This document shows, one piece after another, positions 1-26,812 of a stretch of DNA of 56,607 nt. The notes under the pieces were generated by a model. It was not told the origin of the DNA and made no database searches. It saw only the letters and a list, made by a program, of their open reading frames with translations. The stretch comes from Planctomycetota bacterium. GTDB lineage: Bacteria; Planctomycetota; Phycisphaerae; UBA1845. Where the stretch lies: the NCBI GenBank assembly GCA_024276605.1, contig JAJRWX010000012.1, positions 1 through 56,607 on the forward strand, given 5' to 3'. Made by a program: the position numbers and the translations under genes. Position 1 is the first letter of the stretch; every line of letters starts with the position of its first letter.

Positions 1-60
1 TACCTCCCGCAACGTATCGCGTTCTTCATCACTCAATCGAACCACGTACTTCTTCTGCAT
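1..60 (-). CDS. IS630-family transposase, N-terminal fragment
   Basis: Only the first 20 codons are in the window. The start is ATG at 58-60, preceded by a strong AAGGAGG ribosome binding site at 68-74 (7-base spacing). The peptide begins MQKKYVVRLSDEERDTL, which fits the N-terminus commonly seen in IS630-family transposases, ahead of a helix-turn-helix. The catalytic DDE domain lies outside the window, so activity cannot be judged. The assignment rests on the N-terminus and the TA-ended terminal repeat. Confidence 0.65.
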   Translation of the reverse strand, partial: MQKKYVVRLSDEERDTLREV

Positions 61-139: not shown

Positions 140-2145
140 GTTTTGGCGGCGGCATTCGAGTACGGTATGGAACTCCGCAAATAAAAAATACTATATTTTC
201 AGATAATATAGCCAACGATCTAGGTGGAGGCGCTGTAAGCGTCAATGCAGGCAAACCAATATTCACGAACTGTTTATTTACGAATAATCAAAACATGGGT
301 AATAGGGGTGGAGGCGCTGTATGGATCAATAGTGGAGATGCCAGTTTTAACAATTGCACTTTTTCCGAAAACTCCTCCACAAACTCCGAGAATCCTGATG
401 GTGCACAAACTATTCAAATCGCCGACAAAATAACTATTGTTAATAGTATTGTCTGGCAAAATAACCCTGGTACAACTATTAACGTCACTTCGCTCTCTAA
501 TATATCTAACAGCTGTATTCAAGGCGGATGGGATGGTAATGGTAATGACAATATCAGCGCGGATCCGGAGTTTATAGATGATAGTATCATCAACGGCAAC
601 CTCAGATTGCTCCCTAGCTCGCCAGCTATAAACACTGGTGACAATGCTGCCGTGACGGAACCGACTGACCTGGACGGCTTGTCACGCATTGTAGGAGGTA
701 CGGTGGATATGGGGGCGTATGAATATCGTTACATCCCGCTGACCACGGTTACAGGCGAAGATGGTTTTACTAAAGACCGTTACCTTTCATTTAACCCCGG
801 AAGTGGTCGTGCAGCCATCCGCGTGAGGCGAGATATCGATGGGATTGAGTCGTGGGTGGGGTGCATGGGAACGTCTTTTGCTGGTGATGACGGAGAAGGA
901 TTCGATTTAGTCGATAGCCTAGTATACTGCAATTGGCAGAACCCCGTAATCCATGTAACAGGATGCTAGGTAAGACCGGGAGAAAGCTACACTATCGAAG
1001 CGACTGAAGATGGCGTTACGTACACAGCGGCATTAAACGTTGATACGACACCAATACCAAATGGACAAAATAATTTTGGCGATCTTGCATCCTCTCCTCC
1101 TGCGGGGAGTACGATATGGGGCCCACCTAGCGGCGTTGTGAGCGTTGTTGATATCAATGCCGTTCTATACGGTTTCAAGCACGATATACCGACACCACTT
1201 CGTGCACGTATTGATATTGCTAAGTCTACACCGGACAAGGTAATCAACGCAGAAGATATACTCGGAGCTGTTCAAGCATTTCGCCTTTTCCAATATCCAG
1301 CCTCATGGCAGTGTGGATGTCCGGGTTTCGCAGCTTGCTCCAGTAGTCCCCCAGGTGCATTGAGCACGTTCTCGATTGTTGCGAGCGAATCGACAATCAA
1401 TCCCGGTCAAACAGTGAATATCGACGTATTCATCGATGCGGTGAGTGATCTGGCTGGTTATGAAGTGGCAATCAACATGGCTGCATGGGGTCTTGGTACG
1501 CTTGACCTGGAGAGTATGAACATCGACGAGAACCGCAGCGATTTTGTATTCAACGGGATAACGGTTACAACAGCCATCGATAACGTGACCGGTCGATTCG
1601 GCGTGGTCACGAGCGATGGAAGCGGCACAAACGTGACGGGAACGGGTTATCTCGGCACGTTTACCTATCGAGCATCATTGGATGCGGACGGCCTGTTCAA
1701 TGCGGTTGTCAGTCAAAATAAACGAGCGTTTCTGCTTGATTCGACGAACACCAAAACATCTTCAAGTCAAGGGAGTTCGATCCTGATTGGCGTGGATGTT
1801 CTGTGTACGGACGATGCGTCCTGCGATGATGGAAACCCGTGTACCGATGATACCTGTGATCCGCAAGTCGGGTGTGCGAACGTAAATAATGACGCCAACA
1901 CCTGTGACGATGAAAATGCCTGTACAAGCACAGCGTGCGTGTCCGGTGTTTGCCAAGCGACGAATCTATCGGCGGGAACACCCTGCGATGATGGATTAGC
2001 CTGTACCGGAACGGATACGTGCGACGGAGTCGGGGTCTGTGACCATAGTGGCAACTCATGCAAGAGTGGAGAAGTCTGCTGTGAGTGTCCTGCGTGTGCT
2101 CACGCTTGTGCGACACCACCGATGCAGTGTAACTGCCCGTTCTAA
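140..2145 (+). pseudogene. Secreted beta-helix / cohesin-like / Cys-rich surface protein, broken by an IS and an amber codon
   Basis: One reading frame runs from the IS junction to the TAA at 2145, interrupted only by TAG at 967-969. The first part carries repeats of the GGGAV...NCTF...N type, typical of right-handed beta-helix (polymorphic outer-membrane-like) proteins, ending with DMGAYEYR. After the TAG, at about 1130-1300, comes a paired Asp-containing segment (VVDINAVLYGFK, then INAEDILGAVQAF) of a kind seen in planctomycete secreted proteins. A cohesin-like beta domain follows (about 1360-1800). Last come Cys-rich CDDGNPCTDDTCD repeats to the end. The 5' part and signal peptide lie beyond the IS, outside the window. 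There is no frameshift. The simplest reading is an extracellular protein gene killed by IS insertion plus one nonsense change; the segment from 1138 could still give a fragment. Confidence 0.75.
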
Positions 2146-2375: not shown

Positions 2376-3365
2376 CTATCCGTTTTCTGGCGGTGGCGAT
2401 TTCGATGATTCTTTTTCAAATCGATCAAGTCGATACCGGATGGCATCACGAGAAATACCGAGTAAACGGGAAGCGCGACTCAAATTATGATTGGCATACT
2501 CGAGCGCCGCTTGAATAATATGATACTCCACTTCATTCAACAACGGAGGATCCCGGGCAAAATCTATGTTGATCACATGCTCTTGGGGTTGACAGGCAAT
2601 AGTTACACCACCTGAAGTAGAGACGGGCTGCAACGAAAAATGTTCCAGCATCAACTCACGCGAATCGGCTATCAATGCAGCGCTTTCAATCGCATGTTGT
2701 AGTTCCCGCACGTTACCGGGCCAATCATGGGCTAGTAAAGCTTCGAGTGCAGGCGCACTGATATCATCAATATCCAACCCATATCGCAACGAACAACGCT
2801 TCAAAAAAAGACGTGCTAACAATACGATGTCATCACCCCGCACACGTAGTGTGGGTATCTCAAGACGCAAGACCTGTAGACGATGAAACAAATCCTGCCG
2901 AAAACTGCCGGACTCAATCGCTTCTTCCATCGTACGATTTGTCGCGGCAATCACATGCACATCAAGTTTCCGATCGCGCGTACCGCCAACCGCTCGAATC
3001 GTCCGTTGTTCGAGAACACCGAGCAGTTTGGCCTGTAACGACATCGGCATATGCCCTATCTCATCGAGAAATATCGTGCCATGGTTAGCTAACTCAAACA
3101 ACCCTATCTTGTCTTTTCGCGCATCCGTAAAAGCACCCTTCACATGCCCAAAAAACTCCGACTCCGCCAGGTGATCCGCAATCGCCGTACAGTTGACATG
3201 AATAAACTTACCGTCGCTACGCGGACCGTTATAGTGAATCGCTCGAGCAATAAGCCCTTTCCCCGTACCCGTCTCACCAGTGATTAAAATCGTCGGTGGA
3301 TTCTCCACGGCTAAGGCAGACGTGCTCACAAGTCGTTCAATGCGCTTTTTGACTTTTCGCATCAT
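2376..3365 (-). CDS. Sigma-54 activator module (AAA+ and Fis-type HTH), detached C-terminal part of an NtrC-family regulator
   Basis: This 329-residue product would activate sigma-54 RNA polymerase by ATP hydrolysis. Walker A is GETGTGKG (residues 30-37), the sigma-54 contact loop is GAFTDA (77-82, against the common GAFTGA), and Walker B is TIFLDE (97-102). The DWPGNVREL motif and a C-terminal Fis-like helix (NLSRASRLLGISRDAIRYRL) follow. The receiver domain lies directly upstream in the same frame, separated by TAA, Ser and Pro codons. In intact NtrC proteins this linker reads IxGESPxM, so the TAA stands where Glu (GAA) is expected. The ATG at 3365 could be used for re-initiation and give a receiver-less, possibly constitutive, activator. 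No strong ribosome binding site precedes it. Confidence 0.85.
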   Translation of the reverse strand: MMRKVKKRIERLVSTSALAVENPPTILITGETGTGKGLIARAIHYNGPRSDGKFIHVNCTAIADHLAESEFFGHVKGAFTDARKDKIGLFELANHGTIFLDEIGHMPMSLQAKLLGVLEQRTIRAVGGTRDRKLDVHVIAATNRTMEEAIESGSFRQDLFHRLQVLRLEIPTLRVRGDDIVLLARLFLKRCSLRYGLDIDDISAPALEALLAHDWPGNVRELQHAIESAALIADSRELMLEHFSLQPVSTSGGVTIACQPQEHVINIDFARDPPLLNEVEYHIIQAALEYANHNLSRASRLLGISRDAIRYRLDRFEKESSKSPPPENG

Positions 3366-3371
3366 GGGAGA

Positions 3372-3806
3372 TTAACCGATAATCGGCTCGCTCCGCACTT
3401 GCTCACGATCTCGATTGCGAAAATAGTTTAGATCATCCGCCACATGTTGCCGGCTAACCACGCGCTCAACTATGAGGTGCAATGTGTCTAAATCGATAGG
3501 CTTAGCCAAAAACTCAGCAGCACCAGCCTTCATCGCCTGCACGGCCATGGCTACATCACCATGAGCGGTGACCATAATCGCCCCCGTACGCGGCGACGAC
3601 TGACCAATGGCATTAAGTACTTCCAGTCCATTCTTCCCGGGTAATCGATAATCCACAATCACCACATCCGGTGGATCAGACTCGACCAGTTCGATCCCCT
3701 GCTCACCACTTTCTACGCACCGCGCCGTATACCCAGTCAGTGCGAGAGAATCACGCATGTTGCGTGCGAGTACCTCTTCGTCCTCAATGATTAAGATCGT
3801 AGCCAT
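3372..3806 (-). CDS. Response regulator receiver domain, detached N-terminal part of the same NtrC-family regulator
   Basis: A 144-residue receiver domain. It has the acidic pocket at residues 8-10 (IIEDEE), phospho-acceptor Asp52 (VVIVDYRLPG), the switch Thr80 (MVTAHG) and Lys102 (AKPI). It ends EPIIG-stop, at the point where intact family members continue with ESP-M. The following ORF continues in the same frame, and the two plus the stop and two linker codons make 477 codons, a normal NtrC length. The histidine kinase at 4097 is divergent and is the likely partner. Whether this is a natural split or a recent nonsense mutation cannot be decided from sequence; I favour a mutation because the break falls inside a conserved linker with frame retained. 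Confidence 0.88.
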   Translation of the reverse strand: MATILIIEDEEVLARNMRDSLALTGYTARCVESGEQGIELVESDPPDVVIVDYRLPGKNGLEVLNAIGQSSPRTGAIMVTAHGDVAMAVQAMKAGAAEFLAKPIDLDTLHLIVERVVSRQHVADDLNYFRNRDREQVRSEPIIG

Positions 3807-4096: not shown

Positions 4097-5476
4097 GTGA
4101 ATAACCCCGACCAGACGACCAAAGCAACCCGGACCATTCGTTGGAAATGGTATCACTACTATTTCATTCTCGCGGCCTTCGATTTGGTCATTATTATTGC
4201 CAGCCTTCTCTTGCACGACCAAACACTCAACTCCTATGAACATGCTTTGCGAAAGCTGGGAAAGCTACACACACAATTAAGAAGCGTAGCTGCTTTACGG
4301 CTCGGCGTCGTCGATCTTAGCGCCCCCGGTAATGATGTGTTCGCTTCATTTCAAATCGACTTTGAACGTCAACGTTTTGAACTAGCACGTAGCCATCTAC
4401 CTTCGTTACTCCAAACAGCACATGAAACGGGTGTCGATATAACGGAAGCACAGGATCACATCGACGCCCTCGCGCAGCAGGCACGAAAAGTTTTCTCCAC
4501 ATTGGCAGAAACATACACGCAGGACAACGTCATTATACAGGTCAACGCCGTCGCTGCCATGGCCATGATGGACAACCACCTAGCCTCCACACTAACCAGC
4601 CTCACTGAAATTGAGCAACACGCCCTGATGAAAATAGACAGTATTCTCGTGGAATACGGCATCCGACTCGCATCTTACGGTAGCATCCAATCATCCATGT
4701 TAGCCGTCGTCGTCGTCATTCTTCTAGGTGTATTTTGGTATGGTCGCAAACTACAAGTTATGCACGAATTGATGATAGCCGATCAGCATACCGCCCAATC
4801 TGCACGCAACGAACGACTCGCCGCGGTGGGCCAATTATGTACGGGCGTAGCTCATGGTATACGCAATCCCCTCGCGGCCATCATGACTTCCGCCCAGTTA
4901 GGACTTTCTCTGCAAAAATCCAAAGACGATTTAACGCCCCGACTAACCGACATCGTTGAGGCGTGTCATCGATTGGATCATCGCTTAACCCGGTTGCTCG
5001 ATTATTCACGCGGCGCAGGCGACGTCATGGCCACGTACGATTTTCCCGAAGCCATTTCCCAGGCATATGATGAAATACGTGAGATGCTCAACGCCGCGAG
5101 TATCACCGTAAACATCACCCAACCCACCCAACCAATATCCATTCGTGGTGATCGAGATAGAATGGTCAGGGCATTTATCGAAATTTTCTCCAACGCCGCT
5201 GAACACGCCGAGGCAGGATGCACCGTGTCCGTCAGTTTTGCGACCGACGACTCTATACCACCACGCGTTGAAGTCGTCGTAGCTGATACGGGTCCGGGTA
5301 TCGATCAGCATGTCCGAGGGCAAGTGTTCGACCTGTTCTTCACAACCACGACTAGCGGAACCGGAATAGGCCTATCCGTCGTAAAAGATGCTATCACATT
5401 GCACGGGGGTGAAATTGTAGTCGACACTTCCGCCCAACAAGGAGCACGGCTCCGTATGTGGCTGCCACTAGCATAA
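4097..5476 (+). CDS. Membrane-bound sensor histidine kinase
   Basis: A 459-residue sensor kinase for the adjacent NtrC-type regulator. Transmembrane segment 1 is at about 21-40 and segment 2 at about 199-215, enclosing a helical periplasmic sensor region. The cytoplasmic core has the H box with His253 (GVAHGIRNPLAAI; Gly replaces the usual Glu after His), an N box with Asn366 (EIFSNAAEHAEAG), G1 DTGPGI (397-402), the F box FDLFFTTT and G2 GTGIGL (421-426). All ATP-binding boxes are present. The start is GTG at 4097 with GGGAGAG just upstream. It is transcribed away from the regulator across a 290-base divergent region (3807-4096) that should hold both promoters. The sensed signal is unknown. 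Sensor kinases of this class typically pair with sigma-54 activators. Confidence 0.9.
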   Translation: MNNPDQTTKATRTIRWKWYHYYFILAAFDLVIIIASLLLHDQTLNSYEHALRKLGKLHTQLRSVAALRLGVVDLSAPGNDVFASFQIDFERQRFELARSHLPSLLQTAHETGVDITEAQDHIDALAQQARKVFSTLAETYTQDNVIIQVNAVAAMAMMDNHLASTLTSLTEIEQHALMKIDSILVEYGIRLASYGSIQSSMLAVVVVILLGVFWYGRKLQVMHELMIADQHTAQSARNERLAAVGQLCTGVAHGIRNPLAAIMTSAQLGLSLQKSKDDLTPRLTDIVEACHRLDHRLTRLLDYSRGAGDVMATYDFPEAISQAYDEIREMLNAASITVNITQPTQPISIRGDRDRMVRAFIEIFSNAAEHAEAGCTVSVSFATDDSIPPRVEVVVADTGPGIDQHVRGQVFDLFFTTTTSGTGIGLSVVKDAITLHGGEIVVDTSAQQGARLRMWLPLA

Positions 5477-9839: not shown

Positions 9840-10019
9840 CTACGGTTGGGGATGTGGGTTCGTCTGAATATCTACGACGCGACCATTGTCATCAACGTAG
9901 ATAGGCATTCCGGCTTCACGCAGGCGAATGACTTCGCGGCGAATTCCCTCTTTAAGGCCTGCGATGATTTCTTCAAGCCGCCGATCCAAAAAGTGATGGT
10001 CAATATTGTCTTGCTGCAT
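9840..10019 (-). CDS. Small protein downstream of and overlapping the zeta-like toxin gene; probable antitoxin or partner
   Basis: A 59-residue ORF starting at ATG 10019, inside the last 20 bases of the zeta-like gene in another frame, and ending at TAG 9840-9842. The sequence starts MQQDNIDHHF, has a charged amphipathic helix (LEEIIAGLKEGIRREVIRL) and a short beta-like end (GMPIYVDDNGRVVDI). Small proteins with a basic helix followed by a P-V/I-x-V-x-x-x-G-R/K-V motif are often found next to this class of zeta-like kinase, from memory of such loci. The overlap and co-orientation argue for translational coupling. If it is the antitoxin, the order (toxin first) is the reverse of the classical one. 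The reading frame is intact although the toxin is broken. Confidence 0.55.
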   Translation of the reverse strand: MQQDNIDHHFLDRRLEEIIAGLKEGIRREVIRLREAGMPIYVDDNGRVVDIQTNPHPQP

Positions 10020-10596
10020 AGTCTGCTTGCTCGCTTATGAGCTTGTACTGCTCGTCGATCAGTACGGTTGGCTCAGTTCCCATGTTCCCATGAGCAACAA
10101 CCATTAGCTCGGCACCTGAATTATCGCATATCGTCCACGTATTTGCCAGTGATTGGTATATACTGAAAAAATTCGCGAGTCCGCGCCAATATCGTCGCTC
10201 GATCGTTTCGGATGGAACATCATGCCCGCCTTGGCTAACACGCACTTTAACCCGGCATATCGCAAGCTCAGGACTAGAAAGCCAGATGAAAGGCAAGTGG
10301 ACCACATATCCCGACTGTTAAGCTTCCCGAAGAAAAACCGCATAGGTTCGCCCAGCTAGCGTGGTCTCGAAAGCAAAACTCTCCCGGCGTTCTCGCAACT
10401 TGTGAATACGCTGCAACATGATCTGCCCAGCTTCAATAGCTAAGCTAGCCGGTGCAAATGGCGATAAACCAGAGGCAATAAGGTCTGCATTAACGAATTG
10501 TTCAATGCGCAACCTTTCAGGTAGTAATGTTCTAGCTGTAGTCGATTTCCCCGCACCGTTGGGTCCACAAAGAACAAAAATTTCTGGGCTGCTCAT
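10000..10596 (-). pseudogene. Zeta-toxin-like P-loop kinase, interrupted by one in-frame TAA
   Basis: Two ORFs (10318-10596 and 10000-10305) lie in the same frame and together give a full zeta-toxin-like kinase of about 198 residues, broken only by TAA at 10318-10320. N-terminal features are Walker A GPNGAGKST, NADLIASGLSPF, and FAFETTLAGRTY. After the stop come HLPFIWLSS, RVKVRVSQGGHDVP (an Arg-rich lid) and a C-terminal CDNSGAE motif, the usual order for this family, whose known members phosphorylate UDP-N-acetylglucosamine or other small substrates. The break reads FLREA-stop-QSGYVV; intact relatives carry Lys, Arg or Glu there, one base away. The active site needs both halves, so the gene is probably inactive unless the stop is read through. 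The small partner gene overlaps its end. Confidence 0.75.
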
Positions 10597-22764: not shown

Positions 22765-24734
22765 ATCGGGTAGGAGGGCGCCTCGCGGCGCCCGTCCTCC
22801 CACACCACCGGACGTACTCATCGTATCCGGCGGTTTCTTCTACCGTTGTAACACGGCATACCGTTCGGTCAGACATACGAGTCCCTGATCTTTGAACCAT
22901 GCAAGGGTCATGGCTTCGGCAGCCTGTGGGCTACCCGCCATGCGCCACCAGCCCTTGCCGGACAGACCCAGAAGCCAGGCCCGCCATTCCGGCACGCCCA
23001 GACTTCGCAGGAAGTCGGCAATGGGTTTGGCGCGTTTCCGCTGTTTCAGACGCACGCAACGAAGTTTTCGACGAGTCCATTCATCCAGACGTTGCAGGTG
23101 TCCTCTGCAGGCCGCATAGCGGAAGTAGGTCACCCACCCGGTCAGGAACGAATTCAGCTCGCCGATCATCCGTTCGAGGCTGACGCCCCGGTTTCGTTGC
23201 GTAATTCGACGAATCCGGGCCTTGGCACGCGCCAGACTGGTCGGCGCGATACCCAACTTGCCCCCGGACAAAAGCCGGTAGCCAAGGAACTTCCGTTCCC
23301 TCACATGCGCCACCGCACTCTTGATCCGGTTGACACGCAGTCGAAGTCGTTTCTCCACAAAGGTTGTGACCGATCGCATTACCCGTTCCCCCGCCGCGCG
23401 CGACTGAACGTAAATGTTACAGTCGTCCGCGTACCGGCAGAACGTGTGACCTCGCCGCTCCAACTCCTTGTCCAGATCATCCAGCAGGAGATTGGCCAGC
23501 AAGGGCGAGAGCGGTCCACCCTGGGGAGTCCCTTCGTGTCGCTTCACGCAAACCCCGTCTTGCATCATCCCCGCTTCCAGGAAGCGGCAAACGATACGCA
23601 GCAGTCGCTTGTCCGAGACATGGCGGGCCAAACGTGACATCAGAATGTCGTGGTTCACCCGGTCGAAAAACTTCTCCAGGTCGAGGTCCACCACAATGCC
23701 ACGACCACCAGCCACGTACGTCGACGCCCGATGCAGGGCTTGATGGGCACTACGCCCCGGTCGGAAACCGTAGCTCGACTCCGAAAACGTTGGATCCAAC
23801 AGCGGTTCGAGCACCTGAAGCATCGCCTGTTGTATGAGACGGTCCAGAACCGTTGGGATGCCCAATTGACGCATCCCGCCGCCCGGTTTGGGGATTGCGA
23901 CGCCCCGAACCGGTTGCGGTTCATAACTGCCGTCCAGCAGCGAGGCGATGAGTGCCTCTTTGTGCTCGGCCAACCAAGAACCCAGTTCGTGTACGGTCAT
24001 CCCGTCCACGCCCGGCGATCCCTTGTTGGCTTTCACCCTCTTGTAGGCTCGGTTCAAGTTGTCACGGTCGCACATCCTTTCCATCAGGTCGCTTGTCAAG
24101 GCTCGTTCCTGATCCAACGCCGTGAACGCTTGCCGCTCCTCGTACGCCGCAGTTCTGGTTCCGCCGTCACCGCCTGCGCCGGGGCGCAACGTCGCCAAGT
24201 CCTCGAAGAAGAGTAACTGGTCGCCGCTGCCTTGCTGCTGCTCCACGTCCATCGAGTCGTTCAGACTGCTCCTTGCGATAAAAGATTCGGCCCTTCGTCC
24301 GACTCTGGCGGCTTGGCCTATCTGTTGGCTCCGCCTTTCGGCATTGGAGTGCCTCACTAGCCTCGCCGAGTCGTCGGCCTACTATGGCCTCGGCTGACTT
24401 CTCCCGATCCATCCCGCCGCGTTGCCACGACGGTAGTCCGGTTCGTCCGGACAGATCGAGAGACCTCCCAGGGTAAGACGTGAATCTTTCACTCGGGCCC
24501 CGCCGGATTTACCCATACGCACGTCCGGATGACGATCGGGCGTCCCCGTCCATAGCCGGGTTACCCCGTGCGATAGGCCTTGTATCCGATTTCTGTTCGT
24601 CGGGTCCGAGTTTCACCTAAGGCTTCCTTCAGATTCCGCCTCGCGACGGACACCCTTGCCTTCGGCTCGTGGTTCCGGTCATCACAGCCCACAGAGGACT
24701 TACACCTCCAAGATTCACGCCATGCCTGGCGCAC
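22765..24734 (-). mobile_element. Class C group II intron
   Basis: A self-splicing retroelement of about 1970 bases. The 5' end on the minus strand begins GTGCGCCAGGCATGGCGTG at 24734, close to the bacterial class C consensus. At the 3' end a domain V-like hairpin (CCGGATACGATGAGTACGTCCGG, in the RNA sense at about 22829-22807) and a GC-rich domain VI stem lead to CCTACCCGAT, ending at 22765. An RT/maturase ORF fills the middle. It sits immediately beside a rho-independent terminator hairpin (24739-24775), the typical insertion site of class C introns. Both ends and the ORF look intact, so it may still be mobile. Boundaries are inferred from consensus and may be off by a base or two. Confidence 0.88.
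22840..24252 (-). CDS. ltrA: Group II intron reverse transcriptase/maturase (LtrA-like)
   Basis: A 470-residue protein that helps intron splicing and copies the intron RNA into DNA at a new site. Reverse transcriptase blocks are in order: RVKANKGSPGVDGMTV, GGGMRQLGIPTVLDRLIQQA, SSYGFRPGRSAHQAL, VDLDLEKFFDRVNHD, GTPQGGPLSPLLANLLLDDL and the catalytic FCRYADDCNIYV. The GIIM maturase domain follows (SFLTGWVTYFR...LDEWTRRKLR). No endonuclease domain is seen, as is usual for class C. I start at ATG 24252 (MDVEQQQGSGDQ) because relatives begin with this motif; the frame stays open to 24357. It is encoded entirely within the intron on the minus strand. Confidence 0.92.
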   Translation of the reverse strand: MDVEQQQGSGDQLLFFEDLATLRPGAGGDGGTRTAAYEERQAFTALDQERALTSDLMERMCDRDNLNRAYKRVKANKGSPGVDGMTVHELGSWLAEHKEALIASLLDGSYEPQPVRGVAIPKPGGGMRQLGIPTVLDRLIQQAMLQVLEPLLDPTFSESSYGFRPGRSAHQALHRASTYVAGGRGIVVDLDLEKFFDRVNHDILMSRLARHVSDKRLLRIVCRFLEAGMMQDGVCVKRHEGTPQGGPLSPLLANLLLDDLDKELERRGHTFCRYADDCNIYVQSRAAGERVMRSVTTFVEKRLRLRVNRIKSAVAHVRERKFLGYRLLSGGKLGIAPTSLARAKARIRRITQRNRGVSLERMIGELNSFLTGWVTYFRYAACRGHLQRLDEWTRRKLRCVRLKQRKRAKPIADFLRSLGVPEWRAWLLGLSGKGWWRMAGSPQAAEAMTLAWFKDQGLVCLTERYAVLQR

Positions 24735-24867: not shown

Positions 24868-25740
24868 TTAGCGGTTATGGTCAATCACATACGTACTGAT
24901 CGAAGAGATTTGTAAAAAACAGGCCAATAACAATCGTGCGCTCGCCGCATCGTGCTGATCGTCCAGCAAGCTCATCGTACCCCAGATAGCCACAACAATC
25001 GCCAGCATCTGCAATAACGTACCGAACAGTTTTAGCAGGGAAAAATCGTGCTGACTTCTTTCGCGATGCGTGCGCTGTTGTTGATCGGAAATCTGCTTGA
25101 GCAATTCGATCACGGAATCGTTTGACGGACTTGTCTCAATAGGCTCTTTGGTTTGCTCGTTCGTGTCGTTGACCGATTCCATCATATCACGCTCCACCAA
25201 ATTCGCTGCCTCGCGCAGGTCTTCGACGACAAACGTCGGCGCTACGTCATGATCATTTTCCAATCGCCCATCACGAGCCAGCAACATGGTCCGACATCCT
25301 GCTGCTGCACCGGCACTGACATCGCGCAGGGCATCACCGATCATCCATGACTGGGCAAGGTCAATGTCAAATTCTTCCGCAGCTTGTAGGAGCATCCCCG
25401 GTTTGGGTTTTCGACAATCACTATCACGTCGAAATTGATCCACCGTAGCTGCGGGACCATCCAGATAAGGACAATAATACGCGCCATCGAGCGCGGCACC
25501 GTGCTCTTTCAGCAGCGATTCCATACGATCATGGATCGTTGTCAAATCCTGCTCGGAAAACATCCCCCGTGCGATACCTGATTGGTTTGAAATAAGCACA
25601 ATCTTAAAACCCGCCTTGGCAAGCCGCCGGATAGCGGCTGCAGCTCCAGGCAACAGCTTAACCTGCCCGACCGAACGCAGATAGCCTACGTCTTCTATAA
25701 TGGTTCCATCACGGTCCAAAAATACTGCACGACTCTTCAT
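24868..25740 (-). CDS. gmhB: GmhB-like heptose bisphosphate phosphatase with C-terminal membrane tail
   Basis: A 290-residue HAD-superfamily phosphatase. The family removes the C7 phosphate from D-glycero-manno-heptose 1,7-bisphosphate on the way to ADP-heptose for LPS, though other histidinol-phosphate-type substrates are possible. The catalytic DxD is FLDRDGTI (Asp9, Asp11), followed by LISNQSGIARG, a Cys-containing loop (about 105-128), CRKPKPGM and MIGDALRDVSAG. After about residue 185 the chain has an extra charged linker and two predicted transmembrane segments (LQMLAIVVAIWGTMSL and ASARLLLACFLQISSI), absent from standard GmhB. The start is ATG 25740, with AAGGGCG upstream. It is the last gene of the LpxK operon and is followed by the terminator at 24739-24775. 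Confidence 0.8.
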   Translation of the reverse strand: MKSRAVFLDRDGTIIEDVGYLRSVGQVKLLPGAAAAIRRLAKAGFKIVLISNQSGIARGMFSEQDLTTIHDRMESLLKEHGAALDGAYYCPYLDGPAATVDQFRRDSDCRKPKPGMLLQAAEEFDIDLAQSWMIGDALRDVSAGAAAGCRTMLLARDGRLENDHDVAPTFVVEDLREAANLVERDMMESVNDTNEQTKEPIETSPSNDSVIELLKQISDQQQRTHRERSQHDFSLLKLFGTLLQMLAIVVAIWGTMSLLDDQHDAASARLLLACFLQISSISTYVIDHNR

Positions 25741-25807
25741 TTTTATGTCGCCCTTGTTCGAGCAAGTTCTACTTAAGGCTATCGCGCCTGGGAGAATGAT
25801 TCTTCCT

Positions 25808-26812
25808 TTAGTCCATGGACGAGCTAACGTTACGCTTGGGTGTAACATGTTCCAGCTTTTCGATCACAGCTTGTCGTAGCAGTGGTAGCATAATCTCGTG
25901 ATGCCCAATGATTTCGAATCCCCGACCCGGCTGTACGGGCCTGGTTAAGACATTTTGACGCGTGCGATAATGTCGCATCATATCCATATTTGCCGTGGTC
26001 ATAGCATCCAAATTCGCACCGAGATTTCTCGCAACTGAAACGGCTTTGAGAAATACTTCCGGTAAGATAACAGCCGAACCTATATTGAGCCAAACACCCC
26101 CGACACCACTGTCCTCAACCGCCCCCAAATCGCTGACAACATCACATAACAATCGAAAGTCATACATCGATGCATCCCCCAACGACGCACCGTCCATACC
26201 ACTTGACACATGCACGGTATCCGTACCCAGCGCCACTTGTACGCACGCAGGGATATCCGCTTTCGCTGCTGCGACAAAGACGCTTTGCGAACCATGAGGG
26301 GCGTTCGATTCGATCAACTCATCACCGACGGCACGTCCCAAGCCCCGGCCATCGTGTGAAGCCCGCTTGATGATGCGGTCGAACAGAGTTAACGTTTCAC
26401 GAACCATACCAAATCGGCCATCGTTAATGGTATCCGCCACCTCCTCACTGGTTTGGCCCATCGTGGCTAACTCCGCATCGTGTATAGCACAGGCTCCATT
26501 GCAGGCTATCGCTTTGATCATACCGCGTTCGATGAGATCGATGAGTATCGGTGCACACCCCACCTTGATGACATGGGCGCCGAAAGCTGCAACCACGGGA
26601 CGATCCGCCTTGGTTGCATCAGCGATAGCCTCAGCCAATAGTCGAAATTGCTGCGCTCCCAAGTACGCCGGCCACGAATCGAGTAAATCGGTAGCGGATG
26701 CGCCAGGCTGTGGCAAGGCGGCCTGTGACTCTACGACGGCTTTATGTGCCCGCTGCGCTGCGCTGTAGGTCGTCAGTTGCGAAAAATCTTTCGGTTTGTA
26801 TTTTCGCGTCAT
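25808..26812 (-). CDS. Uncharacterised protein with deoxyhypusine-synthase-like features
   Basis: A 334-residue cytosolic protein. I do not recognise a named function. The segment VVAAFGAHVIKVGCAPILID followed by IKAIACNGACAIHDAEL resembles the NAD-binding core of deoxyhypusine-synthase-like proteins, but the standard lysine-containing active-site motif is not evident, and bacteria lack eIF5A. A second glycine-rich block is VGGVWLNIGSAVILPEVFL. The start is ATG 26812, only 6 bases after the LpxK stop, so it is translated with LpxK. Its fixed place between LpxK and GmhB suggests a role in lipid A or sugar metabolism (inference). Confidence 0.5.
   Translation of the reverse strand: MTRKYKPKDFSQLTTYSAAQRAHKAVVESQAALPQPGASATDLLDSWPAYLGAQQFRLLAEAIADATKADRPVVAAFGAHVIKVGCAPILIDLIERGMIKAIACNGACAIHDAELATMGQTSEEVADTINDGRFGMVRETLTLFDRIIKRASHDGRGLGRAVGDELIESNAPHGSQSVFVAAAKADIPACVQVALGTDTVHVSSGMDGASLGDASMYDFRLLCDVVSDLGAVEDSGVGGVWLNIGSAVILPEVFLKAVSVARNLGANLDAMTTANMDMMRHYRTRQNVLTRPVQPGRGFEIIGHHEIMLPLLRQAVIEKLEHVTPKRNVSSSMD

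Follow-up and report, generated by a model that had tools for sequence, protein, structure and literature searches.

Is a two-component regulator whose receiver and AAA+ domain are separated by one stop codon a new kind of sigma-54 activator, or a recently broken or misread copy of an old one? This question is raised by the window, the whole stretch of DNA analysed here, which is one complete contig (G000:C72) of 56,607 bases from a planctomycete genome (G000) of 4.5 Mb in 110 contigs. Its minus-strand frame 3806-2376 encodes an NtrC-type regulator of 476 codons with a single internal stop in the frame translation, at the joint ...EQVRSEPIIG-stop-SPMMRKVKKR.... The comparisons below indicate that the stop is probably either a nonsense mutation of recent origin or an error of the consensus sequence, within an otherwise healthy NtrC-type gene that preserves both of its domains.

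Anatomy of the interrupted regulator

The central observations of the first-pass annotation, namely a stop in the receiver-AAA+ linker and an undamaged histidine kinase gene, are both borne out, with the TAA lying between an ORF matching Response_reg and another matching Sigma54_activat, and the kinase ORF complete (Table 1). Both halves of the regulator are intact: in the alignment the receiver ORF shows the phospho-acceptor Asp and the Thr and Lys boxes, and the AAA+/HTH ORF shows Walker A, Walker B, the WPGNVREL motif and the HTH. They are not a chance pair of ORFs, since a single orthologue can be aligned over the full length of both. The order of receiver, AAA+ sigma-54 domain and Fis-type HTH, together with the adjoining kinase, is that of the NtrC-family (group I) enhancer-binding response regulators, from which the window gene differs in the interruption of its frame between receiver and AAA+ and in its sigma-54 loop, which reads GAFTDA. 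This loop is shared by 19 of the 29 other aligned sequences, and GAFTGA to the letter is absent from all 30, the split regulator included. The receiver, the Walker motifs with lid and HTH, the kinase and sigma-54 itself (one gene match in the genome) are all found; the TAA at 3374-3372 prevents one continuous polypeptide.

Table 1. Coordinates of the split regulators and of the neighbouring kinase gene (window positions, except in the last row, which refers to locus L109 = C44:8001-22000 of the same genome)
Feature	Position	Strand	Details
Receiver domain ORF	3375..3806	-	144 aa, C-terminal ...SEPIIG; Pfam Response_reg 99.9 bits
In-frame TAA, receiver-AAA+ linker	3372..3374	-	GAA in this column of sister G002
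ATG-ATG, possible re-initiation start	3360..3365	-	6 bases past TAA; second ATG 3362-3360
AAA+ sigma-54 activator, lid and Fis-type HTH ORF	2376..3365	-	329 aa; Sigma54_activat 208.8 bits, AAA_lid_14, HTH_8
Sensor histidine kinase gene, divergent, intact	4097..5476	+	459 aa; Pfam HisKA, HATPase_c
Second NtrC-type regulator, linker-split	L109 6068-7449	-	By comparison with G001 and G002

Orthologues and the probable recency of the stop

In the sister genome G002 the gene is uninterrupted, with 82.5% identity over 475 residues and a Glu codon (GAA) in the column of the stop. A search of the family gave matches in 17 of 51 genomes (E<=1e-150) and one of the order gave 34 matches in 31 of 114 genomes (E<=1e-125); in both, the linker stop was seen only in G000. 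Four of the 34 order matches carry a stop, the others being G097, with a TAG at the receiver end, and G011 and G065, whose stops lie at or beyond the apparent natural C-terminal end. Another sigma-54 activator gene, L027 (G003:C16), has a TAG within its AAA+ part and a TAA near its C-terminal end. The stops in G003 and G097 show that gene breaks are not confined to linkers. The divergent kinase/regulator pair is also found in G002, G017 and G032, and neither gene was found in G001 at the thresholds used. The pair is a conserved feature of a planctomycete family in which the fused regulator is ancestral. The alignment of orthologues that the first-pass annotation had proposed as a check gives no support so far to the split as a settled arrangement, with the sister and the other orthologues found free of a linker stop; given the unbroken gene in close relatives, the stop most likely arose by mutation not long ago or is an error in the sequence, and a novel type of regulator is less likely. 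The same alignment qualifies the family linker IxGESPxM, which is common yet not invariant, as the stop column holds nine different residues in the 29 other sequences (E in 8, D in 5, A in 5, Q in 4, T in 3, and R, S, K and V in one each).

The split gene shows no clear loss of constraint in sequence comparisons. Against G002, dN/dS is 0.064 for the receiver, 0.074 for the AAA+/HTH part and 0.101 for the kinase, at synonymous sites near saturation, and among 147 columns invariant in 11 outgroups the split gene alone departs at one and the sister alone at one. Unique changes counted against six outgroups, which are mutually non-independent comparisons of small numbers, amount to 3-8 in the receiver of the split gene versus 2-5 in the sister (higher in the former with five of the six) and to 7-17 versus 11-18 in the AAA+/HTH part. 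Signs of a decayed pseudogene were looked for and not found, with no further stop in the gene and similar rates on its own and the sister branch, apart from slightly more receiver changes of its own. The retention of motifs in both halves, in conjunction with this constraint, suggests that the stop arose recently or reflects an error in the consensus. The dN/dS and unique-change rates are averages over all of the divergence and are blind to selection after the split. The stop may be recent, false or harmless to selection, which the constraint tests do not separate.

Possible products of the split gene

The best explanation is that one nonsense substitution arose recently in the receiver-AAA+ linker of G000 alone, or that an error in the consensus gives the appearance of such a change. 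If the stop is real, a free receiver would be made that could still be phosphorylated by the intact kinase, and the AAA+/HTH half would be produced only to the extent that translation begins anew at the ATG-ATG, so that its output would probably be reduced and would no longer be under phosphorylation control. The first-pass annotation placed the tandem ATG directly after the stop and the whole junction at 3363-3380; the two codons are present at 3365-3360, six bases past the stop, and the span takes in the stop and the first ATG, the second lying at 3362-3360.

A separate AAA+ product would depend on re-initiation six bases past the stop, which appears possible in principle. No Shine-Dalgarno-like sequence was found by duplex energy in the 22 bases upstream of the ATG-ATG: pairing with an assumed anti-SD tail gives -2.4 kcal/mol, against a median of -2.2 for random 22-mers of the window, -5.7 at the receiver start and -7.7 at the kinase start. 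Three of nine plain gene starts in the window (9248, 47143 and 54524) likewise lack such pairing, scoring -0.4 to 0.6, and the missing SD is therefore weak evidence.

The exact position of the stop in the linker, the ATG-ATG six bases on, and the intactness and conservation of both halves favour an alternative in which the split is tolerated or even used; the intact halves, as expected were both used, also count against the young-allele reading. Two proteins would then be made by termination-reinitiation, freeing a sigma-54 activator from its receiver, and more than one regulator of the lineage would be cut at this joint, where a break lets each domain keep its fold. We regard this as unlikely: the window ATG-ATG lacks an SD, the rates on either side of the stop, being averages over the whole divergence, do not test selection after the split, and lesions occur outside linkers as well.

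In regulators with the mechanism of NtrC itself, a protein deprived of its receiver would be expected to be inactive. DctD250, an engineered AAA+-only form of DctD lacking both receiver and DNA-binding domain, is reported to be constitutively active (PMC3844500), and by analogy with it an escape of the free AAA+ part from kinase control is plausible. The two are alike in having an AAA+ part without a receiver, but DctD250 was made on purpose and is also devoid of its DNA-binding domain (PMC3844500), whereas the part encoded in the window is a predicted activator.

Some full-length regulator might alternatively arise by readthrough or recoding of the TAA, a scenario consistent with a single stop in a frame that is otherwise open and conserved, yet one that we consider extremely improbable. 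Termination should be efficient at a TAA with T as the next base. There is also no general reassignment of stops in G000, since no internal stop was seen in its 44 ABC-ATPase matches or among the receiver matches listed (46 found); a genome-wide code change or pervasive nonsense was rejected on these grounds.

A second linker split against the background of gene breakage

A second NtrC-type regulator of G000 is cut at the same joint. The survey of domains revealed it on contig C44 as two ORFs, one for the receiver (141 aa) and one for the AAA+/HTH part (319 aa), next to a kinase ORF and beside genes that we take to be flagellar. Its linker is one base shorter than in G001 and G002, a frameshift by which the receiver-frame TGA, just ahead of an IGES-like motif, shares bases with a TTG in the frame of the AAA+ part, and a GGGG stretch (duplex -5.5) precedes the next ATG. 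The possibility that this receiver is a natural separate gene was rejected in view of the one-base shift relative to both genomes. A search at E<=1e-90 gave orthologues in 103 of 114 genomes, and 100 of the 102 others have open frames of at least 444 aa, the remaining two (G083, 290; G110, 381) being partial matches. The window split was seen in no relative found, nor was the flagellar one outside these two, which weighs against a tolerated arrangement.

This second split resembles the flagellar NtrC-family regulator gene flgR of Campylobacter jejuni, which is described as phase-variable through one-base frame changes (PMC3930126). There, flgR is reported to switch reversibly at long homopolymer tracts (PMC3930126), in contrast to the substitution in the window and to the short T run of the flagellar gene of G000.

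Two of the eight strong Sigma54_activat proteins of G000 are thus linker-split. A partial census at E<=1e-30 covered 40 family genomes (366 rows; 110 + 127 + 129) and a further 25 strong rows in G000-G002 (8, 10 and 7), and gave at least 2 linker-split cases in 391 activator domains over 43 genomes, both in G000. This is a lower bound, as ten further rows below 440 aa, all near contig starts, were left unread and those with at least 440 aa were counted as unsplit on length. The 19 loci read, 18 with open frames below 440 aa and one of 447, proved to be free-standing activators, activators with other or unclear N-termini, or genes truncated at contig ends or interrupted by masked sequence, and none showed a receiver/AAA+ linker split. 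At one locus, L204 (G024:C645:1800-4800), the activator frame starts inside or right after the kinase frame at about 1315, with no receiver found between the two, and the junction may reflect either lost sequence or an artificial join made in assembly. Free-standing activators, presumably PspF-like, resemble the possible window product in being an AAA+/HTH protein alone, and no receiver was found nearby in the four such loci L192-L195; the window gene, by contrast, retains its receiver in frame and descends from a fused ancestor. By our own post hoc estimate, given the window case, the chance that the only other split falls among the seven remaining activators of G000 is about 7 in 390.

How often genes break in general was surveyed in the fetched stretches rather than in whole genomes. 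A first survey gave 26 raw matches over six comparisons, many near the starts of over-long ORFs and some in antisense ORFs. A stricter one gave 33 raw matches, with core lesions in 3 of 171 gene comparisons for G000, 1 of 170 for G001 and 1 of 49 for G002; without the two deliberately fetched regulators the G000 figure is 1 of 169. The G001 lesion looks like an antisense ORF, and a match between L098 and L077 was dropped as apparently non-coding.

Several individual lesions were noted. The sodium:solute symporter gene of L159 (G000:C44:75001-95000; 6027-4369, minus strand) is interrupted by a stop at position 201, where the surrounding stretch shares 90% identity with the unbroken gene of G001. 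A gene that we take to be HAD-type and phosphatase-like has an internal stop in L104 (G002:C55:1-20000; about 15280-14428, minus strand) where the window gene 24868-25848 is open. In the window, a secreted repeat-type protein (295-2145, plus strand) has an in-frame TAG at 967-969, across which its relatives in six fetched loci show no stop. A P-loop ORF (10003-10596, minus strand) with weak, below-cut-off Pfam resemblance to AAA_33 and Zeta_toxin has an in-frame TAA at 10318-10320, which we take for a lesion on the presumed resemblance of the part after the stop. The contig also ends inside an ORF start (1-60, minus strand; MQKKYVVRLSDEERDTLREV) that resembles the start of an IS630-type transposase, and the ORF at 22840-24357 (minus strand) reads like a group II intron-type reverse transcriptase.

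The stops in the symporter gene, in the window and in the HAD-type gene of G002 indicate that single lesions are not peculiar to regulators, and the scatter of single-base lesions in G000 and its sister favours background breakage. Two linker cuts among eight activators exceed the rate predicted by the background of 1 in 169, which does not readily predict a second regulator cut at the same linker; this argues against the young-allele reading. Together with the overlap of TGA and TTG and the GGGG stretch, it lends the tolerated split further support, and it keeps alive a bolder proposal, namely that linker breaks are a tolerated, perhaps selected, route by which single-base changes have freed two sigma-54 activators of this lineage as kinase-independent, translationally coupled proteins. 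We hold this proposal to be quite unlikely.

No description of a natural linker-split NtrC-type regulator was found among the literature matches listed. If both splits are real and expressed, they would be a counterpart in nature to the receiver deletions made in the laboratory, and would let the loss of two-component control be followed as it happens there. If they are not, they would illustrate how a lone stop in a metagenome-assembled genome can pass for a novel gene architecture.
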